This document shows, one piece after another, positions 463 to 27,052 of a DNA stretch of 64,000 nucleotides; within the stretch, counting starts at the first letter, position 1; the number at the start of each line of letters is the position of its first letter. The notes beneath the pieces were generated by a model. That model made no database searches. It worked only from the letters and a program-made list of their open reading frames with translations, and was not told the origin of the DNA. Location: NCBI RefSeq assembly GCF_000715075.1, contig NC_134095.1:8914722-8978721 (forward strand), given 5' to 3'. A program made the translations under genes and the position numbers. This DNA comes from Nicotiana tabacum (Eukaryota > Streptophyta > Magnoliopsida > Solanales > Solanaceae).

Positions 463-753
463 ACTTTCGGGTATTCGTCCTTTTGATCTCGTGTGATAAT
501 GATAATATGCCAGTATACTCTTTAGAGAAACTAACTGCTTGAATTCTTGAAATGAACAAACTTGTTAGTTTTGAGAATTTAACACATATACAATTACACG
601 TTGAGATGCAATGCTCCTAGACAAATATCCCCTTTCTATTATGCATTTGCTCGACTGCTTGTGTCGTCCCAGTTTTCTTGAAAATTTTATTCACTTATAT
701 TTTATTTTATTTTATTATATATATTTTATTGTGGTGGTCGAATCTTATAGAGA

Positions 754-799
754 TTGCCTACGTATCATGCCCCTGCATGAATCAGACCTTGCGTAGTTC
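754..799 (-). ncRNA. Structured motif, copy A-2 (before gag)
   Basis: On the minus strand it reads GAACTACG, then a CTGATT segment, a hairpin CATGC/GCATG, then ATACGTAGGCA. CTACG pairs with CGTAG to form an outer helix. A second small hairpin of the AATC/GATT type follows (to about 741). The same layout occurs at ten sites in the window (see findings). It may be a functional RNA fold; 'ncRNA' is only the nearest category. Confidence 0.6.
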
Positions 800-1584: not shown

Positions 1585-1632
1585 GGTTGCCTACGTATCT
1601 CACATCCGGTGAGAATCAAACCCGCGTAGTTC
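1585..1632 (-). ncRNA. Structured motif, copy A-1
   Basis: Minus strand: GAACTACGCGG, TTGATT, inner hairpin TCTCAC/GTGAGA, ATACGTAGGCA, then a second hairpin ACCC/GGGT (to about 1572). The inner stem differs from copy A-2 at both sides of the helix, so pairing is kept. Confidence 0.6.
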
Positions 1633-1961
1633 GGGCAATCAAGAATAAGTAGATGAACTAACTTCCTTTTTTGAATTTGTGAAAGAACTATTTTAAAAGG
1701 AAAAAGGAAATATTTTTTTTTTTGGATTTTTGATTGATTTTCTTTTTAAAAGAAAGACTTCTAAGATATATATATTTTTTTAATTTCCATTTGTTTTTTT
1801 TTTGTTTTTTTTTCTTATTCTAAAGAAGAAAGAAAATATTTTTTTTTTGGAATTTTACCTTTAATAAAAGAAATGCTTTCTAAAAAAATATTTTTTTGAA
1901 TTTTGAATTTTATTTTCAATTTTTAAAGAAGAAGGAAAATATTTTCGAATTTGTTTTATTT

Positions 1962-6913: not shown

Positions 6914-6918
6914 GCAGC
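6914..6918. repeat. Target site duplication of E1, left copy
   Basis: GCAGC directly before the E1 LTR. The identical five bases stand at 27048-27052 directly after the 3' LTR. Confidence 0.92.
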
Positions 6919-7633
6919 TGTAAACACCTAATTTTTAACAACATTTAATTTTTTATCACTTCTTTTATGTAAATATTTTAGGGGGTTTTAACCTACTATT
7001 ATTTTAGCTTTATTACACTTTTTATTATAGGATAAAAATACCAAAAATTAAAAGCTGAATTATCACTATTAATATTTTTATTGTTATTTTTTGTTTTTTT
7101 ATATAAAAAAAATCCAATTTTTTTTTAAAAACAAAAATAATAGTTTCGGGAATGATTTAAAAAAATAAGAAAAAGGGAAGTTTTGAATAAAAAAATATAA
7201 AAGTAAAAATAGGTGGAATTCTCTTTTAAAAAAAGTAAAAGAATGTAGAAAATTTAAAAAAATAAAATTTTGTGGAAATTTTTAAAAAATTAAAAAGTAA
7301 AAGAAGGTTGGAATTAAAAAATAAATATAAAGGTATCTGAAAATTTAAAAAAAATTTAAAGTAATTGAAAGTAGCAATTTTAAAAGAAAAAGAAAAGATA
7401 GTGGTTTTTTTTTTTTAAAGAAAAGTTAAATAAAGTGAGATTCTCTTTAAAAAAAATAAAAAGTTGGATTTTAAATAAGATAAAATAATTAAAGTTGTAA
7501 TTTTAAAAATAAAAGTAAATAAAGGTGGGATTTCTTTTTCTAAAAAAATAAAAGCAATTTGTAAGTGGGATTTCTTTTAATTAAAAAATAAAAAAATAAT
7601 AAAAAACAAATCTGAAAATTTCGAAAATTTTGC

Positions 7634-7641
7634 TATAAATA
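7634..7641 (+). promoter_or_regulatory. TATA box, E1 5' LTR
   Basis: TATAAATA after TTTTGC, with the same context in the other Ogre-like LTRs. It marks the probable U3/R transition, with transcription expected a few tens of bases downstream. Confidence 0.7.
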
Positions 7642-9366
7642 AAAGAGAAAATTTAGGAAGAATGAGTTCAAAAAAAGAAGAAAAACTAGATAGAGAGAAG
7701 AAAAAAGAGGGGGCGGAGAGAGCGGTATACACTAGATATACACTTTAGATACATAGGATATACAGGGACAGAATTCATTTTGGAGAGAGTAAAAAAGATA
7801 GAACCAAATTTTTTGAAATATTGAGAGCGAAAGAACACCATAGAGAGTTCAAAGCAAGAAAGAAAAAATAAAGAGAGATTTTCGGACTATTTTTCTTCTC
7901 CATTTTTACTAGTTTTCTCCGTGTTGCTGGGATTTCTGGATTGAGGTGTTGAAGCTACTGTGTTGGGTTTTCTGCTGCTGTATGTTGCTGTGTTACATAC
8001 TACTTTGCTGACCTTCTTCTTCTTGTATTGACAATATCAGGTACACAACTGTAACTTTGGTATATTGTAAGCTGAAATGTGAAAGCATGGATACATATGA
8101 AGAATGGAACTTTGAAGTTTTAATTTAACTTTTTCTTTGTTTCTTTTACTAATTGTATTTAGGTTATTTCATGTATTATTATTTTGTAAATCTTTGTCGC
8201 TTTGCATAACTAGGCATCTTGTAGTGATGTATTAAATAATACTTTGCTTTAACTTGATTATTAGGTAGTATATATTTAAGCATGCTAATTACTGTCAAAC
8301 TGTTTAATAATTAGAATAAGAGGAAAATAACATAAGTTGGTCTTTAGTGAATCGGCTTGGCAAAACTGATTAAGTTCACTGGCTATGAAGGTTTTAATAT
8401 TGTCAACATTAGGTTAATCGTGAACAGGTAACTAAATTTAGTTAAAGCATGAATTTAAATTAACTTCGCGAATTAGGCATTATGACATGATTTGAGTTCA
8501 AACAAGATGAGTTAACGTTTAAATTTAATAAACTTTTGAATATGCATTAGTAATTAAGATTGATTCTAGTTTCAAATAGTTATAAATAATTAATTCTAAC
8601 GGTTCAAGTCATCTAACAATGCGAGTTTAATCTAGTTATAGGATAATTAGTTTCTTTTGAATATATTATTTGTCGATTCCGTATTTTATTTATAATTACA
8701 ATTTTAGTAATATTCCTTTCTGTTAACATTTGTCTTAATCTAGCATTTAATATGTTATGTTTTTTAAGCATGTAATTAATTAGAATTTTTTTTCTTTTAT
8801 TTTAGAGACGAATTTAATAGAAATGTAGTCACTTTAGGATATCCTTAAAATAAATGAGGCGTGCTTCGCCAAAATAAATACAAAATTTGCGGGGCCCTCA
8901 ATAATTATTTGTTTTAAAATACTTAGATCCCGGGACGGGTCATTTAGCAAATTTCACTGCCCTACCCAAAATAAAAACAGCGCGTTAGTCTTTAGGCGCG
9001 TATTTAATAATGTTATTTTCCTAAACTCGGGTGCACATTTATGTGACCCAAATCCAAATCTCAACGGAGTCGAAGTGTGTCGACGACCACGGGTACATTG
9101 ACTGTGACGTGGTTTGAGATATATTTTCACGATTGAGATATAATAATGATAAAAGTGGTTAAAAGTTAAAATTCGCACATATGTTCAACATGTATTATAT
9201 CAGATAATCAAGCCGAATATGACAATTGAGCGACTGTGCTAGAACCACGGAACTCGGGAATGCCTAACACCTTCTCACGGGTTAACAGAATTCCTTATCC
9301 GGATTTCTGGTGCGCAGACTGTTAAACAGAGTCATTCTTTTCCTCGATTCGGGATTAAAACCGGTG

Positions 9367-9403
9367 ACTTGGGACACCATAAATCTCCCAAGTGGCGACT
9401 CTG
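9367..9403 (+). other. U5 hairpin with PBS-like 11-mer
   Basis: ACTTGGGA (9367-9374) pairs perfectly with TCCCAAGT (9386-9393). TGGCGACTCTG (9393-9403), the first 11 nt of the PBS, begins at the foot of this stem about 100 nt before the PBS. The same layout is in A, the solo LTR and the E1 3' LTR, and a decayed form is in E2. Confidence 0.7.
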
Positions 9404-9505
9404 AAACAAATAAATAAATCTCGTTTCGATTGTTCTTTAATTGGAAAAAACTCCCTTCCGAGCCCCGTTGCGGCTGCGCGGGTGAAAAAGGAGGTATGAC
9501 AGCTC

Positions 9506-9523
9506 TGGCGACTCTGCTGGGGA
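9506..9523 (+). other. Primer-binding site of E1
   Basis: TGGCGACTCTGCTGGGGA, four bases (GCTC) after the LTR end. It is the same site as in A and E2. Confidence 0.88.
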
Positions 9524-10935
9524 GCGAACCCAGAATCTCTGGTTCAGGGTTCAAGAATTCGAGCTTAGAATAATTGTTATTATTTGGCTTTATTTATTAT
9601 TTGATTTTATTACATGTTTTGGCCTAAATGTGCAAAATGTTGCTTTTACTGCTTTGATATTATCTGAACTGTATATAAACTGTGCCGAAACCCTTCTCTT
9701 CTCATCTTCGGGGATGTGCTCGCTGGCCGAGACTCTCTGTTCTATTAGTGTCATACCCTAAAATAAGAAAGAGGTCGGACAAGTTACAAAGCCGGACGAT
9801 CTCGCGGGTCCCCGGCACGTAGCCCCCTCCTCGACTCGAGTTGTCCACTCGGGTACACAGTCTAGAACAAATACCCAGGTTATGAACTTAGAATAACTCA
9901 GCTTCATGCCAGATCCCTAGTAGGAACGCTTATCTGCATCATGTTGCATTTGACTTAAGGGATTCAACACAGGGGTGGGGGCCGTCTAGGACTACCAACC
10001 TAAAATGAAAAGACCATTCTGCTGCATCCTGTTTGCTTTATGCATTTATTTGCTTCAGACTTGCATGCTGACCGGCTTCGAAAAATCAGGAATATTGAAA
10101 AATTGTGGGGAAAAAAAGAGCGAAGTAACAGTGTAGAGAATTAATTGCCTATTTTAGAAAGAGAAAAAAAACAATACCCAAATACTGTCGAAATTCTGCT
10201 GAAAATCTTGAAAAAATGAAGAAAAGAAAATGTTTTATTTTATTTCACTCAAAAAAAAGAGTCTTTTTATTTTAAGTTTAGAAGAATAGGTTAGTCATTT
10301 TTTGTGAAACAAAAAAGAAAATAAGTCTTCACTTTGTCTTGTTTTCAAAAAAAAAAAAAATAGTTTGTATTGCCATGAAAAATGAAAATTTAAAAGAGTC
10401 TTGTTTTTAAAATGGTTTTTTTTATTTAAAATGAAAATAAAAAGAGTCGTGCGTTAAACGTGGATTTATTATTTGTTGCAAATATATATATAAATCCAAA
10501 AAGTATTTTTCTTGATTTCCTTTCTAGAAAAGTTTTTTTAAACCCCCAATTTTCAAAATAAAAATCCAAAAATATTTTCCACTATTGATTTCTTTAGAAA
10601 GTCTTTTTAATTGTTTTTTTTAAAAATAAAAATAAAAATAAAAATATTTTCTTCTAATTTCTTCCAAAAAAATATTTTCATTCTTCTTTCAAAATTGAAA
10701 AGAAAATTCAAAATTCAAAAATATTTTTTAGAAGCATTTCTTTCATAAATTGAAAGTAAAATTCCAAAAATATTTTCTTTTTTCTTTAGAAGTTTTTCTT
10801 TCGAAATTCAAAAAAAACAAAAATTAAAAATCTTTTTTCTTTAGAAATCCTTCTTTGCAAAAATGCTCCCTTTCTTCTTTATAAGTCTTTCCTTCAAAAA
10901 AAAAATTAGTTCATTTACTTTATTCATGATCGCCC
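9524..10935 (+). other. Leader of E1
   Basis: Untranslated region between the PBS and the first motif copy. 9524-10080 is similar to the E2 leader at 51993-52530. 10090-10930 is A/T homopolymer-rich. No coding sequence is seen. Confidence 0.75.
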
Positions 10936-10983
10936 GAACTACGCCGGTTTAATTCTCACAGGGTGTGAGATACGTAGGCAACC
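10936..10983 (+). ncRNA. Structured motif, copy E1-1 (before ORF1)
   Basis: GAACTACG, then an inner hairpin TCTCACA/TGTGAGA, then ATACGTAGGCA. CTACG/CGTAG forms the outer helix. A second hairpin ACCCG/CGGGT follows (to about 10995). The ORF1 ATG lies about 345 nt downstream. Confidence 0.62.
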
Positions 10984-11328
10984 CGCATCGGGTCCAACTT
11001 CCCATTTTGCAAAAACGACTAGAAAAATGACAATGTTGCCACTTTTATAAAAGAGTCAGGCGATGTCATTTTGCAAAAATAGCCGAACATTCTCTAAAGA
11101 GGCGCCGGAAGGCTGACTTTGTATAAACAGCCACCTTTGGTCATTCTTTTACCTTTCGGCTGGTTAAATCCCTACAGCCTTAAAATCTTCATCCCTAAAG
11201 AGTCAAAATGTCGTATTTGGAGAATCAGTCTTTCTTTTCCTCAAAAATTAGGGAAAAATGGGAAAATTAGTTTATGAGTCAAATAAAGATTTTGCTTTTT
11301 GTCTAAATCACCTTAATAAATGTGCAGA

Positions 11329-13378
11329 ATGAGCACGAGTAGGAATTCATCTGGTGCCATTATAAACGGGATCCCTTTGGGCTTACGCATATGGTGGAAC
11401 GACTTGGAAGAATCAGGGCGAGATACAATCAAGATGTACTTAGGAAACTTAATTGGGTTACTGGACATTGATCCGTGAGGGGACATTATAAGGGCGTTAA
11501 TTTCATTCTGGGACCCAGCACACAATGTATTTCATTTCTCAGACTTTGAGCTCACACCGACACTGGAAGAACTGACAGGGTACATCGGGGGTCCCAAGGT
11601 CCCTATGAGAGAGCAGTATCTTATTGCACCAAGGACCGTGACCATACACAGGTTTTTAGACACCGTGAAGATCCGGAGAGTTATACACAACCCAGAGTTA
11701 TCAGAAGGTTTTTGTAGTTTGGCATTCCTGTACAACAGATACGGTCAGTTTAGAGGGTTCAACAATCCCGAGGGAAAGATCTGCAGCGGGGAAAACCAGC
11801 TGAAATGGGAAAGACATAGGTGTATTGCTTTCATGGTAGCCTTTCTGGGCCTTCTAGTATTCCCGAGAAAAGACGCGAAAATTAACATACAAGTCGATGG
11901 GGTCGTCAGCACTTTGCTCAAGCAAGACAACAGCACTCTGGCACCAATGATAATAGCAGACATCTTCCGCGCTCTCACTGTTTGCAAAACCGGAGGAGGT
12001 TTCTTTGAGGGTTGCAATGTACTACTGCAAATGTGGATGATAGAACACCTATGTCATCGCCCTCAGTTTCTGAAATATGAGTCGTCACAAAAGACTTGTA
12101 TAGAAGAGTTTTCCACAAGGGTCGACGGGTTTAGCCTGCCAGAAGGGGTCGTTGAATGTGTCACTCTGTTGCGTTCCGTCTCAGCAAACCAGATAGAATG
12201 GGCATTTGGGTGGCTACCCATAGATGAAATCATATACATGTCAGCCGCCGAATCTCATTTGTTGTTGATGGGTCTCCAAAGTATCCAGCCCTATGGGCCA
12301 TATAGAGTGTTGAGACAGTTGTGGCGATACCAAATAGTCCCAAAGGAAAAAGGATCTCAGTGGCCAGGTGGTCGAAATCGGGCCTGGTGGGCAGTTCCCT
12401 GAAGCAATCATTCGGAGAATCTGGAATGAATGTCAAACCCTGAAAGTAGATACTCGTGTACAAAACCGGGCCAAAGGCGAAGTGTCACCAAAATACCTCA
12501 CATGGTACAGAAGAGAGCTTGAGCACCAGAGACCAACTAAGAGAGCTCACGTCCAAGACTTTGTAGAATCATCGCAAGCACAATGGGGTTGGCTAGCAAA
12601 AGAGAAAGAATATCGGGTCGAGATTGGCAAGTTAAAACAGCAAATTGAGGGGCTAAAATACCAAAGCAGCTTGCAAATTGATGCTGATACAGGAGAGAAA
12701 AGCAAGTTGACTCAAGAGAACAAGGCCCTGAGAGCCCGAATCCGCCAAGACAGAAAGAATGTCGGTGACCAACAGAAAAGTCGGTCCAATGAGAGGTTGA
12801 TAGTAGAGTTGAGGAGTCAGGTCAGTAAAAGCCGAGAGGATTTGGAGAGATCCGAGGCTTGCATAGCGAGAATGCGGGTCAGATGGGCAAAAGGTATAAT
12901 GGCACGGAAAAAGCATCTACAACAAGTCATAAGGGATTATGAAATGAGCATTGGACTATTAAGAGAAACAAACTCCACTCTTCAGGAGCGGGTCTTTAAA
13001 CAAGCCCGAGATGCCCAAGCAGACAAAAGGCGTTGTTATGATGTGATGACCAGAATGGAAAAACAAATGGAGAGGTTCCAGGATCGACTCCCCGACAATG
13101 CTCAAGCACTGGGACTAAAAAACCGGCGAATATAGCAACTATTCAGGGAAAGGGACAACATCCAAGGTAGGATTGACGAGGTTGGGCACTACATCTACAT
13201 GAGATGCTTAGCATGTGAGCAAATGCCTCGTGATACCCTACTTGCCTCCGTCATGGGCTACGTCCACCGGATCATGAATGAGTTGAAAAGCTTACAAAGG
13301 GGTCTTACACCAAAGCCCGCGGAAAGGCCGAACGATGCCTCGCAGGCACCAAAATTCAAGGCTTTAATGTATCCCTAG
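11329..13378 (+). pseudogene. ORF1 of E1: plant-mobile-domain/DUF7745-like protein with coiled-coil tail (broken)
   Basis: The first part (about 350 codons from ATG 11329) has the feel of the plant mobile domain/DUF7745 proteins often annotated in Solanaceae, with motifs such as LTGYIGGP, RHRCIAFMVAFLGLLVFP and ADIFRALTVCKTGGGFFEGC. The second part is a charged, Lys/Glu/Arg-rich coiled coil (about 12560-13130), then a short tail ending at 13376-13378. Lesions: TGA at 11476-11478, a frameshift around 12340-12400, and TAG at 13133-13135 followed by about 80 further open codons. Ogre elements are known for an extra ORF before gag of unknown role. Neither A nor E2 has it. The domain name is from memory; the coiled coil is clear from the sequence. 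Confidence 0.75.
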
Positions 13379-13550
13379 TTCAAGCCCGCACTTGTTTGTT
13401 TTTCAGAGTCTGTTGTCTACCCCTATGTTCTCTTCAAACATTGTTAATAGTGTGGAGTCTGTATTTCGTTTGTTTTCTTTCAAATAACAGTTTGTAATAG
13501 CATATTTGGGTAATAGAATGTAAAATTGGGTCTTTATTTTACTCAAGCAC
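13379..13550 (+). other. ORF1-to-motif spacer
   Basis: AT-rich and non-coding. It includes 'tttgtaatagc' type sequence after ORF1 that leads directly into motif copy E1-2. Confidence 0.6.
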
Positions 13551-13597
13551 GAACTACGCCTAGTCTGATTCGTGCGGGGTCACGATACGTAGGCAAT
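13551..13597 (+). ncRNA. Structured motif, copy E1-2 (before gag)
   Basis: GAACTACGCC, CTGATT, inner hairpin TCGTG/CACGA, ATACGTAGGCA, then a second hairpin AATC/GATT (to about 13610). The inner stem is different from copy E1-1, yet fully paired. Confidence 0.62.
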
Positions 13598-13908
13598 CTC
13601 TATAGGATTCTACCTTAATTAAAAAAAAAGGAAAAAGAGAGAGAGAAGAAGAAAAGAAAGGTCCCTGAAACACTTAAAAGAGGCACAAATAAAATAATAC
13701 GGGATGATGCATGCGATCAGAGCAAAAGCATGTTAGAAATGGTTAACTGCCTAAGAACATTGCATCCCCCAACGTGCAATTACAATATCTGTTAAGAATC
13801 TAACACTGACAAGTTTGTTGTTTTTCCAATCTATATCAGTTAGTTTGTTAAAGTGTACTGGCACCGTACCATTATCAAACAAGATCAAAAAGGCCCATAC
13901 CAGAAAGC
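13598..13908 (+). other. gag 5' untranslated spacer in E1
   Basis: About 310 bp between the motif and the gag ATG, with a purine-rich stretch at 13620-13680. No ORF or other feature is seen. Confidence 0.6.
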
Positions 13909-16171
13909 ATGACTGGCTCAGACAACAGTGTTGAGTCAGAAAAGATGGCAAATCAGATGCTGAAGGAGGTCATGGAAAAAATGGAAAATATGAGGCTAGA
14001 AATGAATGAAATGCAAATAGCCTTAGCTAGAGCCCAAAAGGGGCATGAACTACCTGTTACTCCAACTCTCCAACTAGGACACACGCCAGAATACCCCTCT
14101 CCCGGTCCTTCAACGAGTTTCCCAAGCCATCACTACTATCAGGGAAGAGAGGCCTATGATCCCCAAGCTCCACCACCCAATCAGAATCCTCCTCCACCAA
14201 ATGTTCCCGTCTTTGTGGCACCTGCCCAGCCCCATTGCACAGATCGTCTAGCGAGCCATTGTTTCAGGCTCACGATACACAATATTACCCCCCTGAACTC
14301 ACATTCAAAGCACCCGAGCCACATACATATAATCCCCACTTTGAGGTCCCGGCGGAGATTGAAAAGCCGGCTAAGAGCCTAGAGCAGGACGAGGTGATGC
14401 GGAAATTTAAAAGCCTGGAGCAGTCCTTCAGGAACATGCACGGGTTAGGCAACCAGGTCAGCGTGGCTTACAAGGATCTATGCCCTTTCACTGACGTCCA
14501 ATTACCAGCAGGGTTCAAGATGCCCAAATTCGATTTATACGAAGGGCATGGAGATCCTATGGCACATCTACGGGGCTTTTGTAGCAAGATGAGGGGAGCG
14601 GGGGGCAAAGATGAGCTACTGATAGCTTACTTTGGCCAAAGTTTGAGCGGGTCGGCACTAGAGTGGTATACAAGACAAGATCCGAGCAGGTGGTACACCT
14701 GGGATGATCTGGCACAGGCTTTCGCAGGACACTTCCAATACAACCTTGAGATAGTCCCAGATCGTCTCACATTGCTAAAGCTTGAGAAGAAACCCGGAGA
14801 GAGCTTCCAGGAATTTGGGTTCCGATGGAGAGAACAGGCAGCCAGAGTTGATCCTCCAATGAGAGAGGGAGAAATGGTAGATTACTTTCTACAAACTCTA
14901 GAGCCAACTTACTTAGGTCACTTGGCAAATCCTTCAACGAAGTGGTGAAAATGGGAGGCATGATAGAAGAGGGACTTAAGTCCAATAAGATCCTGAGTTA
15001 CTCGGCAATTAAGGCAACGACTCAGGCCATTCAGAGCGGCACGGGAGGTGCGCTCGGAAAGAAAAGGAGAGAGGAGGTCACGACAATAAAGGCAGGCAAT
15101 TGGTCCAGATCTAGAGGTCCTTCCCCTCATTACCAACCCAGACTCCATCATCCAAACTACCCACACATTCCAAATTACCCTCCACAACCCTACTACCTAC
15201 CACAAGAACAACATTTCTCCGTCCATCAAGCCCAGACATATACTCAACCCCCGGCTCGCCCGCAATGGCGCGCGCCAGTTCCCCACAATACATACCCACC
15301 TCCACATAATACCTACCCACCACCACAAAACACCTATCCACCGCCAAGAGCCTACAGGAACCCTCTAGGGACAGGTTTCAGGGGGAATCTGGCTTCCAGA
15401 AATGAAAGACTGCAGAGGCAAAGAACCTTTATTGAGTTGGGAGAAACTTATACTGCCTTGTTCCGCAAATTAAGGCAGTTGGGTTTATTAAATCCTGTTG
15501 AGCCTAGGCTGTCAAATCCCTTACCCCAAAATATGGATCACTCGGTAAGATGTGAATATTGTTCGGGAGCTCCCGGACATGATACCGAGAAATGTTGGAG
15601 GCTGAAACATGCGATACAAGATCTTATTGATACCAACAAGATCGAGGTACAGGCACCGGAGGCACCCAACATTAACCAGAACCCATTGCCAAAGCACCCT
15701 GAAGCCTATATGATCGAGCTTGTGCACGAAGGAGGGGAGCCAAAGAAACCCTCACAGACAGTGATGATGATCCGTGCCACTCCGAAAGAAAAATCGACCG
15801 GTGGGGAAGCAGGGGTACAGTTGAAGGGGGAAGATGTCAAGCCAGTGGTGATATTAGGGAAGAATCCATCCACCGCTACAAAGAAACCAGAGCCAGCCAA
15901 GTTGGTAGTATCGGGAGCATCATCTGCACCCGTAGTTGTTGTGAAAGGGGTCTACAGGGAACCGGTCATCATAAAGCCGGTAGTCCAATTGCTAGTGAAT
16001 GATAGCAAGGCTGTGCCTTGGAAGTATGAAAAGGCAGTGGTAATGTACAAGGGAAAGCAAGTGGAGGAGGATAGTTGTGAGGCGCAAGGACTGCCTCGAT
16101 CGGGACGGTGTTTTACTCCCGTGGAGTTGAGAAGGTCCAACCCAGCAGTAACAAAGAAACCCGTGTCATAA
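13909..16171 (+). pseudogene. gag of E1 (capsid and zinc knuckle; frameshifted)
   Basis: N-terminal helix rich in Met/Glu/Lys, Pro-rich linker (about 14080-14230), capsid-like core (about 14500-14940, with PAGFKMPKFDLYEGHGDP and LEWYTRQ), a second Pro/Tyr-rich stretch with YPPPHNTYPPP repeats (15120-15360), and a zinc knuckle at 15551-15595 (Cys-X2-Cys-X5-His-X4-Cys). Gag assembles the particle and packages RNA. Apparent single-base losses near 14230 and about 14930 move the frame twice, and TAA at 16169-16171 closes the third segment just before the protease. The start at 13909 is the first ATG of the acidic N-terminus. The core matches E2 gag (55100-55650). Confidence 0.88.
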
Positions 16172-17401
16172 GAAGAGGCGGAGGAATTCCTGAAAAGATG
16201 AAAGTGCAGGATTACTCCGTTGTCGAACAATTGAAGAAAACACCGGCCCAGATCTCGTTGTTGTCACTATTGATCCATTCGGACGAGCATCGCCGGGCCC
16301 TGATGAAGATACTAAATGAAGCTCATGTGCCCAATGGAATTTCAGTGAACCACCTTGAAACAATTGCCAACAAAATTTTTGAGGTAAACAGGGTAACGTT
16401 CTCTGATGACGATTTGTCAATGGAGGGCACAAAACATAATAAAGCTCTCAACTTGACTGTCAAATGTGAAGATGCGGTAGTTACTCGGGCGTTGGTGGAT
16501 AACGGTTCAAGTGCCAATATTTGTCCATTATCCACACTGAACCAGTTGAAGATTGACCATGATAGAATCCACAAGAACAACGTTTGCGTCCGAGGGATTG
16601 ACGGAAGTGGAACAGACACCGTGGGGGATATTATACTCGAGTTGACCATCGACCCGGTCGAGTTTAATATGGAGTTCCAGGTATTGGATGCCGCGGTATC
16701 TTATAACCTTTTGGGACGACCGTGGATCTACGCGGCCAAAGCAGTGCCATCCACATTGCATCAAATGGTCAAGTTTGAATGGGACAGACAAGATGTCGTG
16801 TTGCATGGGGAAGACACTGCGTGCACCATGGGAGGTGCCATTGTGCCATTCATAGAAACCAACGATGACAAAGGTCCTTGGGTTTATCAGATTTTTGATG
16901 CAGTGTCAGCAAACAAGATTCCCGAGGGTAAAAGCATTCCACACCCCAGGATAGCTTCCGCAACCGTCATGATAGTTTCGGAGATGCTAAGTAACGGGTT
17001 CGTGCCAGGAAAAGGTCTGGGGGCTGAGCTCCAGGGAATTGTTCAACCTGTCTCTTTGCCCAAGAATTTAGAGACTTTCGGATTGGATTCAAACCAATTG
17101 CAGCAGATATAAAGTGAGCTCGGAAAATGAAGAAGAAAGTTTGGGTTCTTCCCAAGCCAGTTTCGCGTCTCTCTAGATCTTTTGTTAGAGCAGGAGTCAC
17201 AAGGTCGTCAGTCCCGAAAATTCGTGGACCGTTGATTGGGCCAGATGGAGATTTGGATGAGGGATTAGAAAGAATGTTCGCAGATGTCAACACAATAGAA
17301 GCTGGAGAGGGTTCCAGTAAGGCAGACATACAGTTTGTGGGGCCTAGGGCCAATGTCAACAATTGGACAGCTACTCCTCTTCCTACTCGGAGGGAGTCCT
17401 G
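16172..17401 (+). pseudogene. Protease and G-patch region of E1
   Basis: The frame resumes at about 16195 after a one-base shift. An aspartic protease domain carries ALVDNGSSANICPL (active-site Asp at 16498-16500) and the downstream LLGRPWI flap-side motif. About 16975-17060 reads MLSNGFVPGKGLGAELQG, a G-patch-like glycine motif. A further one-base shift near 17085 and TGA at 17115-17117 separate it from a last segment, 17127-17401 (KVWVLPKPV). The protease would cleave Gag-Pol. The segment ends at the putative splice donor 17402. Confidence 0.82.
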
Positions 17402-17601
17402 GTAGTTGGCTCTGATTTTCTTTTTTTGTTTTCTGGATTATTCCAGAGTTGTAATCCAGATTCCTTTTTATTTTTATTAATGCTCAACAAAGTGTGAAAC
17501 CTTGTTATCCCATAATTCAATAAAACGAAAAAGTTTCTTCTTTATTCCTTATTTTATATGTTATTTTTAATTTTGTTTCCTTCGTTTCTTTTTCTGAATA
17601 G
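17402..17601 (+). other. Ogre-type intron between protease and RT (200 nt)
   Basis: The protease frame hits TAG at 17403-17405. A GT at 17402-17403 and an AG at 17600-17601, preceded by a T-rich tract (17565-17595), bound a 200-nt segment. Removing it joins frame 0 (ending with two codon bases) to frame 2 (starting with the third base), so the frame continues without a stop into the RT segment. Ogre elements are known to splice an intron at exactly this place. Splicing here is inferred from phase, sites and family behaviour. Confidence 0.72.
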
Positions 17602-18682
17602 TTCTTCTCATACTGGTTCTAATGACATGGCATGCAAAACGAATCTTCAACCTAGTCTAAAAGATCAATCTGATTCCGAACTAACTATACAAGAGGTCGA
17701 TGATGATAATGAATCGGAATATGATGAGGATGAAGCCTTCGAGGAGATAAACAGGGAGTTAAGTTAGTTTGAAGAAAAATCCAAGCCCAACTTAAATGAC
17801 ACAGAAGTCATCAATTTAGGGGATGCCGACGATATCAGAGAAACTAAAATAAGCATCCACATTGCACCAAATATCAGGGAAGAATTTATCAAAACACTTA
17901 TTGAGTTCAAAGATGTTTTTGCATGGTCATATGATGACATGCCGGGGTTAAGCACAGATTTAGTGGTTCATAAATTGCCCACTGACCCGGCATGCTCTCC
18001 CGTCAAGCAGAAATTGAGGAAGTTCAAAACGGATATGAGTGTGAAGATTAAAGAGGAAGTAACCAAGCAGCTGCAAGCAAAGGTTATTTGTGTCACTTGA
18101 TACCCTGATTGGTTGGCTAATGTGGTGCCGGTGCCAAAGAAAGATGGAAAGATCAGGGTGTGTGTCGATTACCGCAATCTGAACAGGGCAAGCCCAAAGG
18201 ACAACTTTCCTTTACCCAACATCCATATCTTAATCGACAATTGCGCCGGACGTGAGCTCGGATCTTTTGTAGATTGCTATGCTGGGTATCATCAGATTCT
18301 GATGGATGAAGAAGATGCGGAAAAGACGGCATTCATTATGCCGTGGGGAACTTATTACTACCGGGTGATGCCATTTGATTTGAAGAATGTTGGGGCCACG
18401 TACATGAGAGCAATGACTACTGTGTTTCATGACATGATCCATAAAGAAATCGAGGTGTATGTGGACGATGTGATCATAAAGTCTAAGCATCAGGAAGACC
18501 ATGTAGCAGACCTAAGGAAGTTTTTTCAAAGACTTAGAAGGTATGATATTAAGCTTAACCCGGCTAAATGTGCCTTTGGTGTTCCATCTGGAAAGATGTT
18601 GGGATTCATCGTTAGTCGGCGAGGTATTGAACTGGACCCGTCAAAGATCAAATCTATCCAAGATTTGCCACCATCGAAATAA
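17602..18682 (+). pseudogene. Reverse transcriptase of E1
   Basis: It opens with an acidic linker (about 17690-17760) and then the RT domain: VCVDYRNLNRASPKDNFPLP, GYHQILM, MPFDLKN and the catalytic YVDD (18458-18469), followed by KLNPAKCAFGV. It copies the element RNA into DNA. Stops at 17765-17767 (TAG) and 18098-18100 (TGA) interrupt it, and a one-base shift at about 18680 precedes the RNase H region. The RT thumb continues in the next frame with LLGRLNYISRFI. Confidence 0.9.
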
Positions 18683-19340
18683 GACAGAAGTAATGAGTCT
18701 GTTGGGAAGGTTGAACTACATCAGCAGATTTATTGCTCAACTCACAGCAACTTGTGAACCCATCTTTCGATTGCTGAAGAAAGATGCCGCGATAGAATGG
18801 ATGGCAGAATATCAGGAGGCATTTGACCAGATCAAAGGATATTTATCCAATCCACATGTGTTGGTTCCACCTGAGCCGGGGAGTCCATTAATCCTTTATC
18901 TAACGGTCCTGGAGAATTCGTTTGGTTGCGTGTTGGGGCAACACGACATCACAGGAAGGAAAGAGCAAGCCATCTATTATCTCAGCAAGAAGTTTACAGT
19001 CTATGAGAATAAGTACACTCAACTTGAGAAGACATGTTGTGCTCTAACTTGGGTAGCACAGAAGTTTAAGTATTATCTGTCGTCACATACTACTTACCTT
19101 ATTTCACGCCTGGATCCATTAAAGTATATTTTCCAGAAGCCTATGCCCACAGGAAGATTGGCAAAATGGCAGATATTACTCACAGAATTCGACATTGTCT
19201 ATGTGACGAGGACGGCCATGAAAGCCCAAGCATTGGCCGATCACTTGGCTGAGAATCCTATTGATGAAGAATACGAGCCTTTGAGGACGTATTTTTCAGA
19301 TGAAGAAGTGATGTATATAGATGAGTTAGAACTGAATGAG
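18683..19340 (+). pseudogene. First RNase H domain of E1 (catalytically degenerate)
   Basis: This follows the RT thumb: GSPLILYLTVLENSFGCVLG, then KEQAIYYLSKKFTVYE, LEKTCCALTW and DPLKYIF. The first catalytic Asp expected in the strand 'xxxDAS' of gypsy RNase H is not seen (LYLTVLEN stands there), which matches the known state of this domain in the Tat lineage. It is in frame with the second RNase H. Confidence 0.8.
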
Positions 19341-19745
19341 GAACCAGGGTGGAAGCTTTTCTTCGATGGGGCTGCGAATGCAAAAGGAGTTGGAATAGGA
19401 GCGGTACTTATTTCTGAAACAGGACATCACTATCCTGTTACAGCTCAGCTACGTTTCTATTGTACCAACAACATGGCTGAATATGAGGCATGCATTCTGG
19501 GCTTACGTTTAGCTGTAGACATGGATGTCCAGGACGTCTTGGTCTTGGGAGACTCGGACCTTCTGGTACATCAAATCCAGGGTGAATGGGAAACACGGGA
19601 TTTAAAGCTTATACCATATCGACAATGTTTGCACGATCTGAGCAAGCAATTTCGATCAGTGTAGTTCAGACACATCTCGAGAGTTCACAATGAGGTTGCC
19701 GATGCTTTGGCCACTTTAGCATCGATGTTGCACCATCCAGACAAG
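19341..19745 (+). pseudogene. Second, archaeal-type RNase H (aRNH) of E1
   Basis: It starts at LFFDGAANAKGVGIGAVL (Asp at 19365-19367), with NNMAEYEACILGLRLA (Glu), VLGDSDLLVHQI (Asp) and VHNEVADALATLA (final Asp), so all four acidic positions of the DEDD set are visible. A TAG at 19662-19664 interrupts it before the last motif. An extra archaeal-type RNase H is a diagnostic gain of Tat elements and is thought to replace the degenerate first copy in removing the RNA template. Confidence 0.85.
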
Positions 19746-21077
19746 ATCCATGTTGACCCGTTGCATATCCAAGTTCGTGGTCAACATGCTTATTACAACA
19801 TGATAGAGGAAGAAGTGGATGGCGAGCCATGGTTTTATGACGTCAAGGAGTACCTCAGGATGGGGATATACCCGGAGCAGGCCACCGGAGATCAAAAAAG
19901 AGCCATTTGGCGATTGTCAAATGGATTCTTCCTCAGTGGAGGAGTGCTGTACAAAAGAACCCCAGATTTGGGATTGCTGAGATGTATAGATGCTAGTCAA
20001 GCCACGACAGTGATGACAGAGGTACATGCTGGAGTCTGTGGGCCCCATATGAGCGGGTATGTATTGGCAAAGAAGATTCTTCGAGCAGGGTACTATTGGC
20101 TCACTATGGAGCGGGATTGTATCAGTTTCATGCGGAAATGCCATCAATGTCAGATACACGGAGATCTCATTCATTCTCCGCCGACAGAATTGCATACAAT
20201 GTCAGCGCCATGACCATTTGTTGCGTGGGGCATGGATGTCATTGGACCCATTGAGCCGGCAGTTTCAAACGGTCACAGGTTCATTCTGGTAACCATCGAT
20301 TATTTCACCAAATGGGTGGAGGCCAAGACTTTCAAGTCAGTGACCAAAAAGGCGGTGGTGGATTTTGTCCATTCCCATATCATCTGTAGATTTGGGATCC
20401 CGAAAGTGATCATCACGGACAACAGTGCTAATCTTAACAGCAGTTTGATGAAAGAAGTATGTCAACAGTTCAAGATTACACATCGTAATTCCACCCCGTA
20501 TCGTCCCAAGGCGAATGGTGCAGTTGAGGCAGCCAACAAAAACATAAAAAAGATTTTGAGGAAGATGGTAGAAGGGTCCAGACAGTGGCATGAAAAGCTA
20601 CCGTTTGCATTGTTGGGTTATCGCACTACTGTTCGTACATCAGTAGGTGCAACTCCTTATTCGTTAGTATACGGAACCGAAGCAGTAATACCAGCAGAAG
20701 TTGAAAGTCCATCCTTTCAGATTGTCGCTGAGACCGGGATTGATGATGATGAATGGGTCAAAGCCCGACTGGAGCAGTTGAGCTTAATTGATGAAAAAAT
20801 ATTGGCAGCAGTATGCCATGGCCAGTTATATCAGAAGAGAATGGCAAGAGCATACAATAAGAAGGTGCGCCTTAGGAAATTTGAAGCAGGGCAGCAAGTA
20901 TTGAAACGGATCCTCCCACATCAGATCGAGGCAAAAGGCAAGTTCGCCCCGAATTGGCAAGGGCCGTATATTGTGACCAGAGTATTATCCAACGGCGCTT
21001 TACGTCTGACAGATGTCGAAGAAAGATGCATCTACGTGGCTATCAATTCTGATGCAGTCAAGAGATATTATGTATAA
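19746..21077 (+). pseudogene. Integrase of E1
   Basis: The zinc-binding module has HAGVCGPH and KCHQC (about 20026-20150). The catalytic core has D (20235-20237), D in ITDNSANL (20418-20420) and E in GAVEAANK (20526-20528), with 35 residues between the last two (DD35E). The C-terminal domain contains FAPNWQGPYIVTRVL and ends at TAA 21075-21077. TGA at 20211-20213 splits the zinc module from the core. It would insert the DNA copy into the genome, with a 5-bp duplication as seen around E1. Confidence 0.92.
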
Positions 21078-21297
21078 TTTATTTTGTTGTTTATTTGTTT
21101 GTTTGTACTTAGTGCTTATCGGATAATGAGATGACGGAGGCAATTCTTTATTTTATCCAAACACTTTTAACCTTTGCTTTACCCCTTTGAGCCTTACTTA
21201 TTCTTTTATACCCCTCCCTTGGAATCATTAATGAAAAAGAAAAAGAAAAATGAAAAAAGAAAAAAAAAGGGTCGCAAGAAAAACAAAGGAATCAAGT

Positions 21298-21341
21298 GAA
21301 CTACGTTCGACCTGATTCCTCAAAAAGGATACGTAGGCGCC
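21298..21341 (+). ncRNA. Structured motif, copy E1-3 (after pol)
   Basis: GAACTACGTTCGACCTGATT, inner hairpin TCCT/AGGA, then ATACGTAGG, followed by a GCC/GGC hairpin (to about 21352). It lies 220 nt after the integrase stop. Confidence 0.62.
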
Positions 21342-21703
21342 TCACGGCTCGGTCATAATGTAACAAAAATCAAAAATTCCCGAAGCAAGAAAATTGGGGC
21401 AGAAGTTATGTTTTTAAATTTTGGAAAAAAAAAGGGTTTGATTCCAAGAGTTGTAATGTTTTATCCATCAAAGTTATTTTGAATTTTATATCCTTTTCTT
21501 TTAAGCCCCACATAAAACCCCTATTGATGTCCAAAAAAGACCTCCCGATCAGTATCCGAGAGGTGCCAAGACAGGCAAATGAAAGCCGAGAATAACACGC
21601 CGGTCCCCGACTGAATGAGGATCCTGAGCTGAAAGAATTGATAGCCATAAGAATTCCCAGCAGAGAGAATCTTACCGGCAACACTCCAATCCCCAGCTGA
21701 GAG

Positions 21704-22024
21704 GCAAAATGAGAGAGTCTTATCGGTGAAAACCTTCACAGGAACCATAAGGCGACGTAAGCTGAGAGAAGCAAAATGAGAGAGTCTTATCGGTGAAAAC
21801 CTTCACAGGCACCATAAGGCAACGTAAGCTGAGAGAAGCAAAATGAGAGAGTCTTATTGGTGAAAACCTTCACAGGCGCCATAAGACGACGTAAACTGAG
21901 AGAAGCAAAATGAGAGAGTCTTATCGGTGAAAACCTTCATAGGCACCATAAGGCGATGGGAACTGAGAGAAATGAGAGAGTCTTATTAGTGAAAACCCCG
22001 CGAAGGGCACTATGAGGCGACAAG
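21704..22024 (+). repeat. 67-bp tandem repeat array of E1
   Basis: Units start at 21704, 21771, 21838 and 21905 (exact 67-bp spacing), then a shortened degenerate unit from about 21971. The core reads 'atgagagagtcttat' then 'ggtgaaaacctt' and 'ataaggcgac'. A shorter version of the same array occurs in E2 at 57860-58050. Confidence 0.92.
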
Positions 22025-22929
22025 ATAGATTGGCGGAAAGGATCCGCATTTTGCAAAGAGGTGGGCACCTATTTATCCCCAGGAAGTGAAGACATCAGAA
22101 AGATTGATCGACACAAATAGACTGGGTTGATTAATCCGCAATGCACGATATGATCGTTGGAATCGGTTATACCACCCAGATAAGTTCATTTCTTTTCTTT
22201 TCCCCATCATTTGTTCAGAAAGATTTTCTCTTTTTCTATCTTTTCATTTCTTTGTTTAAAAGACTTTTTCCAGATTTTTTTTTTGAGAAAGGTCTTTCAG
22301 AGCTTATAACCAGTTGCCAAAATGGTACAACGTAAAATGTGAAGAGGGCAGGCCAGAGACAAGGCAATAAGACAAAAGACGTTGGTTGCCAGGCCGAATA
22401 ATATTGGTCTAAAATGGCAAGGAAGGTACGGGGAAGAACCGAAAAAAAAACAACATGTTGAGGAAATTGTGGGCCAAGTTCCAAGAGGATCCCCAACATA
22501 ACTCCGACCGAATATCGACCAAGTTCCGAGGTGGTCGGACAACACAGAGTGGGAAAGGAAGAAAGGAAAATCCATCTTCAGCAAAATAACCCCCGGTAAG
22601 TTTTGAGACACAGAACGGGGAAGGGATAAATGGAAAAACCATCCCCAGCAGAATGTTATCCCCAGCAAATAACGTCATCCCCAACAAGTTTTGAGAACGC
22701 CAAACAGGAATAAGGGGAAGGGAACAATCATCCCCCATCAGGAGTGACATGACCACTCGCCATATTTTAAAAACTAACTAAATTTTCTTTGATTTGAACA
22801 GGAAAATAAAGTGTTGATGATGGCCAAAAGACACGCCATAAGAAAGATCGCCAGAACTGGGGCAGAAAATTTTCTGCCACAGGTGAAAATTTTCTCGGAG
22901 AATCGAGGAAACAAATTCAAGTTATTCTT

Positions 22930-23885
22930 TAGCAATTAGGCGCCCACTTGTATAACAAGGGAATACTTTCATGTATTTACCATTAGGCGTCAACCTGTAT
23001 AACAAGGGAATACTTTTCATGTCTTTACCATTAGGCGTCCACCTGTATAACAAGGGAATACTTTCATGTCTTTAGCAATTAGGCGCCCACCTGTATAACG
23101 AGGGAATACTTTCATGTCTTTACCATTAGGTGTCCACCTGTATAACAAGGGAATACTTTCATGTCTTTACCAATTAGGCGCCCACCTGTATAACAAGGGA
23201 ATACATTTCATGTCTTTACCATTAGGCGCCCACCTGTATAACAAGGGAATACATTTCATGTCTTTACCAATTAGGCGCCCACCTGTATAACAAGGGAATA
23301 CATTTCATGTCTTTACCAATTAGGCGCCCACCTGTATAACAAGGGAATACATTTCATGTCTTTACTAATTAAGCGCCCACCTGTATAACAAGGGAATACT
23401 TTTCATGTCTTTACCAGTTAGGCGCCCACCTGTATAACAAGGGAATACATTTCATGTCTTTACCAGTTAGCCGCCCACCTGTATAACAAGGGAATACATT
23501 TCATGTCTTTACCAATTAGGCGTCCACCTGTATAACAAGGGAATACATTTCATGTCTTTACCAATTAGGCGTCCACCTGTATAACAAGGGAATATTTTTC
23601 ATGTCTTTACCATTAGGCATCCACCTGTATAACAAAGGAATACTTTCATGTCTTTACCATTAGGCGCCCACTTGTATAACAAGGGAATACTTTCATGTCT
23701 TTAGCAATTAGGCGTCCACCTGTATAACAAGGGAATACTTTCATGTCTTTAGCAATTAGGCACCCACCTGTATAACAAGGGAATACTTTTCATGTCTTTA
23801 GCAATTAGGCGCCCACCTGTATAACGAGGGAATACTTTTCATGTCTTAGCATTAGGCGCCCACCTGTATAATGAGGGAATATTTT
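22930..23885 (+). repeat. ~48-bp tandem repeat array of E1 (about 20 units)
   Basis: The unit core is 'ttaggcgcccacctgtat' followed by 'aacaagggaatac', 'tttcatgtcttta' and a 3-5-bp variable joint, with a period of 46-49 bp. Units are highly alike, indicating recent expansion. A diverged relative with 'cacctggagagcaaaggaat' is at 60455-61080 in E2. Confidence 0.95.
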
Positions 23886-24216
23886 TCAGTCTTTACATTT
23901 CAGGTCTTGAAATCCGTAACCCACCAAAAGGCAGAGGGTTACAACAAAAATCCCCAGCAGAAATCAGAAGGAAGACCACAAGTCGAGCTAGAAGTAAAAA
24001 AATACGAGAGGAAACACAAAGCAACAAGGCAGCAACAATCACATGACCAAGCTCGAGAATAAATCTTTGTAATTCATAGATCATAACTTAGTATAACTTC
24101 TTGTTTTCTTTCTAGCAATGGTGTAATAAGGAGATCGAAAAGTAGTGGTAACAACACGCAACAGCAGTAACAGTAACATCGCAATCCCATGGTAGTCCTA
24201 GCTACCAAAATTTTTT

Positions 24217-24266
24217 GAACTACACACGACCTGATTCCCTTATAACCAGGGATATGTAGGTTGTCC
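24217..24266 (+). ncRNA. Structured motif, copy E1-4 (before 3' LTR)
   Basis: GAACTACACACGACCTGATT, inner hairpin TCCCT/AGGGA, then ATATGTAGG, followed by GTCC/GGAC. The outer helix is now CTACA/TGTAG, a compensated change from CTACG/CGTAG. It lies 136 nt before the LTR. Confidence 0.65.
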
Positions 24267-24389
24267 AAAATCAGGACTCGGTTGCGCCTTTCCTTTTTTA
24301 TTTTTTTCCTATTTTGAATAACGATATGATCAAAAATTAGTCGCATTGTTCACTTTATCTTTGCCCGAAAGCTCTTCGTGTTTTCGAGC

Positions 24390-24401
24390 AAAGAGGGCAG
24401 C
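24390..24401 (+). other. Polypurine tract of E1
   Basis: AAAGAGGGCAGC directly before the 3' LTR. E2 has a similar tract (61566-61578). It is the expected plus-strand primer. Confidence 0.75.
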
Positions 24402-27047
24402 TGTGAACACCTAATTTTTGACAACATTTAATTTTTTATCACTTCTTTTATGTAAATATTTTAGGGGGTTTTAACCTACTATTATTTTAGCTTTATTACA
24501 CTTTTTATTATAGGATAAAAATACCAAAAAAAAATTAAAAGCTGAATTATCACTATTAGTATTTTTATTATTATTTTTGTTTTTTTTTATATAAAAAAAA
24601 TCTGATTTTTTTTTTAAAACAAAAATAATAGTTTCGGGAATGATTTTAAAAAATTAGAAAAAGGAAAGTTTTGAATAAAAAAATATAAAAATAAAAATAG
24701 GTGGAATTCTCTTTTAAAAAAGTAAAAGAATGTAGAAAATTTAAAAAAATAAAAAGTTTTGTGGAAATTTTTAAAAAATTAAAAAGTAAAAGAAGGTTGG
24801 AATTAAAAAATAAATATAAAGGTATCTGAAAATTTAAAAAATTTAAAGTAATTGAAAGTAGCATTTTTAAAAGAAAAAGAAAAGATAGTGGTTTGTTTTT
24901 TTTAAAGAAAAGTTAAATAAAGTGATATTCTCTTTAAAAAAAAAGTTGGATTTTAAATAAGATAAAGTAATTAAAGTTGGAATTGTAAAAATAAAAGTAA
25001 ATAAAGGTGTGATTTCTTTTTCTAAAAAAATAAAAGCAATTTGTAAATGGGATTTCTTTTAATTAAAAAATAAAACAATAATAAAAAACAAATCTGAAAA
25101 TTTTGAAAATTTTGCTATAAATAGAAGAGAAAATTTAGGAAGAATGAGTTCAAAAAAAGAAGAAAAACTAGATAGAGAGAAGAAAAAAAGAGGGGGCGGA
25201 GAGAGCGGTATACACTCGATATACACTCTAGATACATAGGATATACAGGGACAGAATTCATTTTGGAGAGACTAAAAAAGATAGAACCAAATTTTCTGAA
25301 ATATTGAGAGCGGAAGAGCACCATAGAGAGTTCAAAGCTAGAAAGAAAAAATAAAGAGAGATTTCCGGACTATTTTTCTTCTCCATTTTTACTAGTTTTC
25401 TCCGTGTTGCTGGGATTTCTGGATTGAGGTGTTGAAGCTACTGTGTTGGGTTTTCTGCTGCTGTATGTTGCTGTGTTACATACTACTTTGCTGACCTTCT
25501 TCTTCTTGTATTGACAATATCAGGTACACAACTGTAACTTTGGTATATTGTAAGCTGAAATGTGAAAGCATGAATACATATGAAGAATGGAACTTTGAAG
25601 TTTTAATTTAACTTTTTCTTTGTTTCTTTTACTAATTGTATTTAGGTTATTTCATGTATTATTATTCTGTAAATCTTTGTCGCTTTGCATAACTAGGCAT
25701 CTTGTAGTGATGTATTAAATAATACTTTGCTTTAACTTGATTATTAGGTAGTATATATTTAAGCATGCTCATTACTGTCAAACTGTTTAATAATTGGAAT
25801 AAGAGGAAAATAACATAAGTTGGTCTTTAGTGAATCGGCTTGGCAAAACTGATTAAGTTCACTGGCTATGAAGGTTTTAATATTGTCAACATTAGGTTAA
25901 TCGTGAACAGGTAACTAAATTTAGTTAAAGCATGAATTTAAATTAACTTCGCGAATTAGGCATTATGACATGATTTGAGTTCAAACAAGATGAGTTAACG
26001 TTTAAATTTAATAAACTTTCGAATATGCATTAGTAATTAAGATTGATTCTAGTTTTAAATAGTTGTAAATAATTAATTCCAACGGTTCAAGTCATCTAAC
26101 AATGCGAGTTTAATCTAGTTATAGGATAATTAGTTTCTTTTGAATATATTATTTGTCGATTCCGTATTTTATTTATAATTACAATTTTAGTAATATTCCT
26201 TTCTGTTAACATTTGTCTTAATCTAGCATTTAATATGTTATGTTTTTTAAGCATGTAATTAATTAGGATTTTTTTTCTTTTTTTTTTAGAGACGAATTTA
26301 ATAGAAATGTAGTCACTTTAGGATATCCTTAAAATAAATGAGGCGTGCTTCGCCAAAATAAATACAAATTGCGGGGCCCTCAATAATTATTTGTTTTAAA
26401 ATACTTAGATTCCGAGATGGGTCATTTAGAAAATTTCACTGCCCTACCCAAAATAATAACAGCGCGTTAGTCTTTAGGCGCATATTTAATAATGTTGTTT
26501 TCCTAAACTCGGGTGCACATTTATGTGACCCAAATCCAAATCTCAACGGAGTCGAAGTGTGTCGACGACCACGGGTACATTGACTGTGACGTGGTTCGAG
26601 ATATATTTTCACGAGGTTGCAATTCTCGATAAAAAAATAATAATAATGATAAAAATGATTAAAAGTTAAAATTTTCGATAAAAAATAATAATAATGATAA
26701 AAGCGGTTAAAAGTTAAAATTTTAAAATAGTCCCTTTGTATTATATCAGATAATCAAGCCGAATATGACAGTTGAGCGACCGTGCTAGAACCACGGAACT
26801 CGGGAATGCCTAACACCTTCTCCCGGGTTAACATAATTCCTTATCCGGATTTCTGGTGCGCAGACTGTTAAACAGAGTCATTCTTTTCCTCGATTCGAGA
26901 TTAAAACCGGTGACTTGGGACACCATAAATCTCCCAAGTGGCGACTCTGAAACAAATAAATAAATCCAGTTTCGATTGTCCTTTAATTGAAAAAAACTCC
27001 CTTCCGAGCCCCTTTGCGGCGGCGCGGGTGAAAAAGGAGGTGTGACA
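24402..27047 (+). repeat. 3' LTR of E1
   Basis: It runs from TGTGAACACCTAATTTTTG to GGAGGTGTGACA. It is nearly identical to 6919-9501, with a TATA box at 25116-25123 and a local duplication of about 48 bp at 26627-26725 not present in the 5' copy. Confidence 0.95.
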
Positions 27048-27052
27048 GCAGC
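27048..27052. repeat. Target site duplication of E1, right copy
   Basis: GCAGC, identical to 6914-6918. Confidence 0.92.

Follow-up and report, generated by a model that had tools for sequence, protein, structure and literature searches.

A structured RNA motif occurs ten times in a 64,000-nucleotide stretch of the Nicotiana tabacum genome (contig NC_134095.1, positions 8,914,722 to 8,978,721 of the forward strand; hereafter the window), and it is read here, with a probability of about 95% for the structure, as a pseudoknotted RNA element of 61-72 nt in the sense transcript of Ogre-type Ty3 retrotransposons. Elements of the Ogre type rank with the largest retrotransposons of plants. Judged from its sequence, the window hosts elements of this type (E1, E2 and E3), with the order M1, open reading frame 1 (ORF1), M2, gag-pol, M3, tandem repeats, M4 and 3' long terminal repeat (LTR), where M1 to M4 are the places taken by the motif. 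So far as was searched, the motif is undescribed and fits none of the searched RNA families.

Structure and covariation of the motif

The first-pass annotation of the window, made from the letters alone, had described three helices, all of which are present; it missed a fourth, which makes the fold a pseudoknot. The outer helix P1 (CUACG/CGUAG) lies just downstream of a nearly invariant GAA, P2 is a hairpin that follows a nearly fixed UGAU and is separated by a nearly fixed UA from the 3' strand of P1, and P3 is the second hairpin. The strand of four to six bases just ahead of UGAU pairs with another beyond P3, beside an almost invariant C, and it is this pairing past the second hairpin that knots the molecule. 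In the alignment of 93 distinct rows described below, the internal loop is UGAU/UA in 91 rows, and 46 forms of the apical loop region are seen; 98 of 104 rows have the C before the 3' strand of the knot, as do 19 of the 20 rows that lie outside the strict search pattern.

The knot was first suggested by reading copies by eye. In a partner-swap test on 11 copies the pairing score reached 137, the mean being 113 (p 0.0022), with the best runs in the proposed register in seven of them. A later covariance model (alignment A3) was fitted to P1, P2 and P3 only, with the knot helix left out, and it gave 104 matched places in 69 sources at 33-77 bits, 93 of them distinct (locus L009 being dropped as a duplicate place). 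In this alignment 93.3% of the knot cells are paired and 113 are double-changed, a result that none of 500 shuffles equalled, and sliding the knot by one column either way gives 45% or 41% pairing. Of the 93 distinct rows, 75 form all four knot pairs and 87 form three or more; among the ten window copies, all four are formed in eight, three in the copy at 52878 and two in that at 13548.

Selection on RNA structure had been claimed from the window copies, and a test that takes relatedness into account supports it. In this test, parsimony changes on a FastTree tree were re-placed on random branches in 300 repeats, and pairs were ranked by a G statistic with average product correction; the script was our own, and imitates R-scape without being R-scape. 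The six top pairs of 2145 are all proposed pairs. With 93 rows, three of them have E<0.05 among all 2145 pairs, namely P3 55-74 (0.000), knot 19-78 (0.007) and P2 26-41 (0.013), and the non-significant ranks four to six are taken by P2 27-40 (0.083), knot 17-80 (1.8) and knot 18-79 (3.2); six of the 20 proposed pairs reach E<0.05 when these alone are tested. After removal of the window and of locus L001, from which the idea of the knot came, the remaining 83 distinct copies place knot 19-78 first of 2145 (E 0.007), and five of the 20 proposed pairs still fall below 0.05. The leading pairs rank alike in a run of 60 repeats, and in the first alignment, of 45 rows, the five best pairs were all proposed ones, with the best knot pair at only E 0.17.

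The covariation that the annotation had expected in all three of its helices is significant in P2 and P3, but P1 barely varies, with one pair changed on both sides, so that covariation says little about it. Moreover, the search pattern partly fixed P1, GAA, UGAU, UA and the outer P2 pairs, where support is weaker; the 20 rows outside the strict pattern mostly retain all of these parts.

Double compensating changes on the same branch number nine in the knot, eight in P2, four in P3 and one in P1, and the knot has a further 19 single changes that preserve pairing. Pair-breaking changes number 19 in the knot, 17 in P2, 18 in P3 and nine in P1, many of them presumably reflecting decay in dead copies. 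These counts bear on an extremely improbable alternative, in which the motif has no function and its pattern comes from ancient duplication of a short segment, drift and the copying of whole elements. In high-copy families a single change can be seen many times, and pair-breaking changes do outnumber same-branch double compensations, but such compensations occur in all four helices and the tree-aware null stands against chance; they also answer the case of recent duplication with neutral drift, which the annotation had named as a refutation. Additionally, the motif is conserved where its surroundings are not (identity of 68-81% within classes, against 22-48% for 200-nt flanks, with one copy that is M1 by position, at 1025 of L024, contained in the M3 class), and G-U exceeds A-C. 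The latter excess is 104 to 33 on the sense strand over 17 of the 20 pairs, the two inner P2 pairs and the outer P3 pair, often unpaired, being omitted, and leans toward the sense RNA as the functional molecule.

Some observations weigh against this fold. Over all 20 pairs the G-U excess is weaker, 117 to 78, and favours the sense strand less strongly. Single-sequence folds of eight copies have z-scores from -2.45 to +0.19 and do not recover P1 together with the knot, and minimum-energy folds mostly form a competing nested helix in place of P1 (columns 16-20 with 49-53). No covariation support was seen for this competing helix, of whose five column pairs two hardly vary and the rest are uncoordinated; since it is able to form, the RNA may be bistable.

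Copy number and host elements

All ten copies listed by the annotation are present in the window, together with the inner-stem and second-hairpin pairs that it named. Its consensus CTGATT is exact in eight of them, the copy at 10936 having TTAATT and that at 1585 TTGATT. The annotated outer helix is right for both fourth copies, which have CTACA/TGTAG, and for the copy at 57545, which has a G-U closing pair; the copy at 52881 departs from the description, having CTATG/CGTAA with one mismatch and one wobble. A covariance model, a check that the annotation had proposed, was built from 45 copies (model R1), and its matches in the window are exactly these ten, of 61-71 nt and 51-77 bits, with nothing further at E<=0.05. 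The ten belong to the training set, so that their recovery is partly by construction; still, there is no eleventh match.

In the 4.0-Gb source genome, the strict pattern GAACTAYRN{4,12}TGATYCN{4,26}GATAYGTAGGYA has 31,235 + 30,262 = 61,497 exact matches, and a reversed-pattern control has 0 + 0. This number is a lower bound, because the pattern is fitted by four of the ten window copies and not by the other six, and the true copy number is higher. If the motif is functional, an undescribed functional RNA would be present well over sixty thousand times in one large plant genome, next to the gene blocks of the elements. The U-A form of the knot pair has 3,986 genome matches, which is one cell of an intended 2x2 count from which no conclusion is drawn.

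The domain content of E1 agrees with the account of Ogre elements in the sections of PMC6317226 used here, which points to an Ogre-type host. According to these sections, a second RNase H, of archaeal type, between RNase H and integrase is a trait of Ogre and Retand, and an extra ORF with a plant mobile domain is found in 57% of Ogre elements (PMC6317226). In E1, an RVT_3 domain, by its domain match a putative archaeal-type RNase H, comes after RT_RNaseH and ahead of Integrase_H2C2/rve, and an ORF with the plant mobile domain precedes gag (Table 1). In E2 all four motif copies are kept, and the interval from M2 to M3 has no match to the reverse transcriptase (RT) or integrase proteins of E1. 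In E3, on the minus strand, M1 and M2 are separated by 761 nt with no ORF1 match between them. The LTRs of the window have no copy matched by model R1, and across the three elements the distance from the LTR end to M1 is about 0.9-1.5 kb.

Twenty more regions of 9-10 kb were picked for variety, and thus not at random, among the first matches listed on one contig. Each shows part of the order M1, ORF1, M2, gag-pol, M3, M4, and none contradicts it if two kinds of exception are ascribed to neighbouring elements, namely features on the opposite strand in L017 and L027 and, in L029, an RT match past M4. The motif is found once each before ORF1, before gag, after pol and about 110 nt before the polypurine tract, with an extra copy in some elements. 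The distance from M4 to the tract is 100-120 nt in eight of 12 M4 copies; in the remaining four, no polypurine tract was recognised. Paired copies of M1 or M3 type, about 0.8-1.2 kb apart, are seen in L026 (3182-4066) and on contig G000:C1 near 6480000 and 26427000.

The motif is also kept where genes cannot be matched. Between M2 and M3, only gag matches are found in E2 and L026, L014 has gag and integrase, and none of the three has an RT match. Locus L022 has M1, M2 and M3 within 2.8 kb. None of seven E1 protein pieces matches there at E<=1e-6, and the longest frame between M2 and M3, of 71 codons, is not beyond chance (median of shuffles 62, 95% point 91). L018 likewise has no match to the E1 protein pieces, yet carries a 238-codon frame of unassigned kind; it shares with L022 stretches as long as 2.1 kb that are 83-88% identical, so that there are at least two related copies of this kind. 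The retention of the motif in elements without gag and pol matches suggests that it probably acts in cis on the RNA of its element and does not serve one gene.

The same loci bear on translation control, in which M1 and M2 would recruit or restart ribosomes for ORF1 and gag, and which is quite unlikely. A frame of at least 142 codons begins 290-402 nt downstream of M2 in eight of nine loci, as would be expected of such control, but in those eight loci 5-10 earlier ATGs stand between M2 and the start of the frame, no gag or pol gene follows M3 and M4, and M1 and M2 are kept in elements without ORF1 or gag-pol matches. The leader from M2 to the gag region (L016, L020, L024, L028 and window positions 13616-13909) is of fairly steady length and contains several short upstream ORFs.

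Scans outside Ogre elements

Only one match came from a scan of the bacterial and archaeal genomes, near a contig end in a roe-deer gut 'Bacilli' bin (JAFUBK010000065.1; locus L001, also L089). On one side of the motif, where the contig ends, a frame open over 656 codons encodes a hAT transposase (PF05699, E 1.9e-21), and the motif, a divergent copy of 36.5 bits, lies 52 nt past its stop, with a 7-bp knot, including one wobble, beyond a P3 longer than that of the model. On its other side, a bacterial SSB gene seems to be without its start, judged against typical SSB proteins, and the contig is probably a chimera with food-plant DNA.

In the viral collection the strict pattern had no match, and neither had the RT and integrase peptides of E1. 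A relaxed pattern gave 18 viral matches, all rejected: they reach 9.5-15.5 bits with the model, against 33-77 for accepted copies, and L085 alone has an E of 0.032. Seventeen of them (L070-L087 except L075) are one conserved phage protein-coding segment (..LHDNDSFGYVGQLAGYAKAM..) that mimics the motif spacing by chance, and L075 stands in a different context.

Comparison with known RNA families

At curated Rfam scores no family, hammerheads included, matches in the window or in L001, and at loose thresholds there are only sub-threshold matches of long noncoding RNA type that overlap single copies. ARAGORN finds no tRNA gene in the window, on which ground a tRNA-like structure was rejected, as was a hammerhead for want of an Rfam match. 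A resemblance between the P1 flanks and helix 18 of 16S rRNA was put down to chance. No description of the motif was found in the open-access literature, an earlier account in subscription papers being possible, and the main text of a survey of plant structured RNAs uses neither 'retrotransposon' nor 'transposable' (PMC12218528).

Other RNA structures are described for plant transposons. The ENE is a structured cis element of plant transposon transcripts, for example in the 3' untranslated region of Evade/Copia93, and it raises RNA stability and mobility, as given in excerpts of PMC12501189; another is reported from a rice hAT transposon (PMC12846552, likewise drawn on in part). The likeness ends with a cis RNA structure in transposon transcripts: the U-rich internal loops of the ENE bind the poly(A) tail, whereas the present motif has the UGAU/UA loop, a pseudoknot and several copies, also far upstream. 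An ENE triple helix was therefore rejected, the U-rich internal loops not being found.

In plant LTR elements, reportedly including non-autonomous ones, a study of retrozymes has found hammerhead ribozymes. These too are structured RNAs of plant LTR elements, and in the parts of PMC10226581 used here they are often located in the LTRs; the window LTRs, in contrast, carry no copy of the present motif.

Another comparison is with xrRNAD, a class of exonuclease-resistant RNA (xrRNA) of plant viruses. Its knot starts in the apical loop of P2 and joins the strand after P1. The text of PMC6299227 is in line with this, and its relevant parts give L1 and L2B as more than 97% conserved and find plant-virus xrRNAs in intergenic positions, which for some is the 5' end of a coding subgenomic RNA. 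The present motif shares with xrRNAD a small pseudoknot between or after genes and the stems P1 and P2; some xrRNAD members also have a hairpin downstream, and some viruses have more than one copy (PMC6299227). The knot differs, being formed here by the 5' internal loop with the strand that follows P3, and so do the conserved parts; membership of xrRNAD was rejected on the origin of the knot in an internal loop and on the many forms of the apical loop.

A self-cleaving ribozyme with the strand order of hepatitis delta virus (HDV) ribozymes, cutting beside P1, is very unlikely. The HDV helices follow the order P1-P2-P3-P1'-P4-P2'. By our own comparison, the motif would have the same succession of strands (P1, knot helix, hairpin, P1 strand, hairpin, knot strand), with P2, P3 and the knot covarying and P1 near-invariant, and the GAA before P1 and the C before the knot 3' strand could suit a catalytic RNA. 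The passages of PMC4908430 used here describe HDV-like ribozymes as helices P1-P4 with a pseudoknot, cut at the first base of P1, with a core of L3 and J4/2. Unlike these, the motif has the UGAU and UA joining segments, a short J to the knot strand and a conserved GAA upstream of P1, and it is internal in genomic RNA, which would be cut at four internal sites. Membership was rejected, as the P1.1 contact, linking the hairpin loop with bases that follow P1, could form in no more than 32 of 93 rows, 16 of them by Watson-Crick pairs, and no Rfam ribozyme matches.

Proposed function and alternative explanations

A cis function of some kind at the level of RNA is likely on this evidence. The keeping, export, translation and packaging of long Ogre RNAs are poorly known, and a conserved knot at four places of the RNA gives a concrete handle on them. 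Moreover, the sequence is short and has compensating mutations, so that breaking it and restoring the pairing in a reporter could show which step depends on it.

As a tentative proposal, the motif may be a compact knot that shields transposon RNA from 5'-3' decay, an xrRNA in effect. Presumably a 5'-3' exonuclease would stop at the motif, and at each copy the RNA downstream would survive decapping or silencing cleavage. The covariation of the knot, the lean to the sense strand, the retention of the motif without gag and pol matches and the M4 spacing were counted for such protection, and so were two further points: the motif lies outside ORFs and in series, and plant-virus xrRNAs, as described in part of PMC6299227, also lie between genes; and in the copy behind the hAT ORF, packaging and reverse transcription play no part. 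Decay protection is ranked ahead of export and packaging. If decay is blocked in this way, a defence that has so far been described in RNA viruses would exist in retrotransposons too.

Retroviral constitutive transport elements are RNA export elements, and the motif might similarly recruit host export factors that take intron-bearing or intronless transposon RNA out of the nucleus, although this is unlikely. Export agrees with the retention of the motif in elements without gag-pol matches, and it would suit a hAT transposase mRNA too; against it, four copies per RNA exceed the usual need of such elements, and no Rfam family is matched. Recognition of the genomic RNA by Gag or another element protein, for packaging, dimerisation or copying, is put no higher. 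Elements without gag-pol matches, which are obliged to borrow proteins, keep their copies in order, the distance from M4 to the polypurine tract is steady and the sense strand is favoured, all of which is consistent with such recognition; but the copies are spread along the whole RNA, with M1 well away from the LTR end, and a divergent copy lies behind the ORF of a DNA transposon.

On the broadest reading, the motif would be a new natural fold, with the strand order of HDV and a different core, and a portable cis device that guards or processes the RNA of unrelated plant transposons, Ogre and at least one hAT. This is doubtful. The model misaligns the long P3 and the knot of L001, out of register. 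Among 67 distant hAT relatives scored in the source genome, at 28-32% identity, the 3' flanks of 20 were fetched and none has the motif, so that a general hAT association was rejected and the link rests on one locus; the L001-type sequence was not found in the source genome. These observations on the hAT copy, together with the differences from xrRNAD, were counted against decay protection.

Features of the window

The motif copies and the coding and terminal parts of their hosts are listed in Table 1. The motif marks segments of the elements and could aid the annotation of non-autonomous copies without a coding region.

Table 1. Motif copies and host-element features in the window (plus strand, forward; bit scores from model R1)
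Feature	Position	Strand	Basis or remark
Motif M2 of E3	735..802	-	77 bits; knot GGTC/GACC
Motif M1 of E3	1568..1635	-	R1 match; knot GGGTT/AACCC
5' LTR of E1, motif-free	6914..9503	+	BLAST against 3' LTR, 94.3% identity
Probable primer binding site of E1	9506..9523	+	Position beside LTR end; identical sequence after E2 LTR
Motif M1 of E1, between 5' LTR/primer binding site and ORF1	10933..11000	+	65.5 bits
ORF1 fragment of E1, plant mobile domain and DUF7745	11605..12402	+	PF10536 E 5e-13, PF24924 E 4.9e-8
Motif M2 of E1, between ORF1 and gag	13548..13615	+	67 bits; 2/4 knot pairs
gag fragment of E1	14235..14948	+	PF03732 E 1.1e-7
E1 ORFs, interrupted: RT, RNase H, second RNase H-like domain (RVT_3), integrase	18113..21077	+	PF00078, PF17917, PF13456, PF17921, PF00665
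Motif M3 of E1, about 220 nt past integrase ORF end	21295..21355	+	51.1 bits; knot GACC/GGTC
Motif M4 of E1, 108 nt upstream of polypurine tract and 3' LTR	24214..24284	+	68.5 bits; knot CGACC/GGTTG
3' LTR of E1, motif-free	24397..27049	+	BLAST against 5' LTR
5' LTR of E2	48080..51971	+	End set by similarity to E1 LTR end
Motif M1 of E2	52878..52948	+	55 bits; 3/4 knot pairs
Motif M2 of E2	54067..54135	+	66.3 bits; knot GATC/GATC
ORFs of E2	54538..56430	+	E1 gag match at 54901
Motif M3 of E2	57542..57602	+	57.7 bits
Motif M4 of E2, 120 nt upstream of a polypurine tract	61380..61450	+	59.7 bits; knot GCAACC/GGTTGC
3' LTR of E2, clipped at window end	61579..64000	+	95.7% identity to 5' copy across 1.66 kb

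Between gag and RT, a G-patch domain (PF01585, E 3.8e-5) lies near the end of the E1 ORF at 16108-17112. The region between M3 and M4 (21699-23900 and 60400-61100) is filled by tandem repeats of about 48-49 and 67 nt, and the 49-nt repeat type is common to E1 and E2, at about 65% identity.

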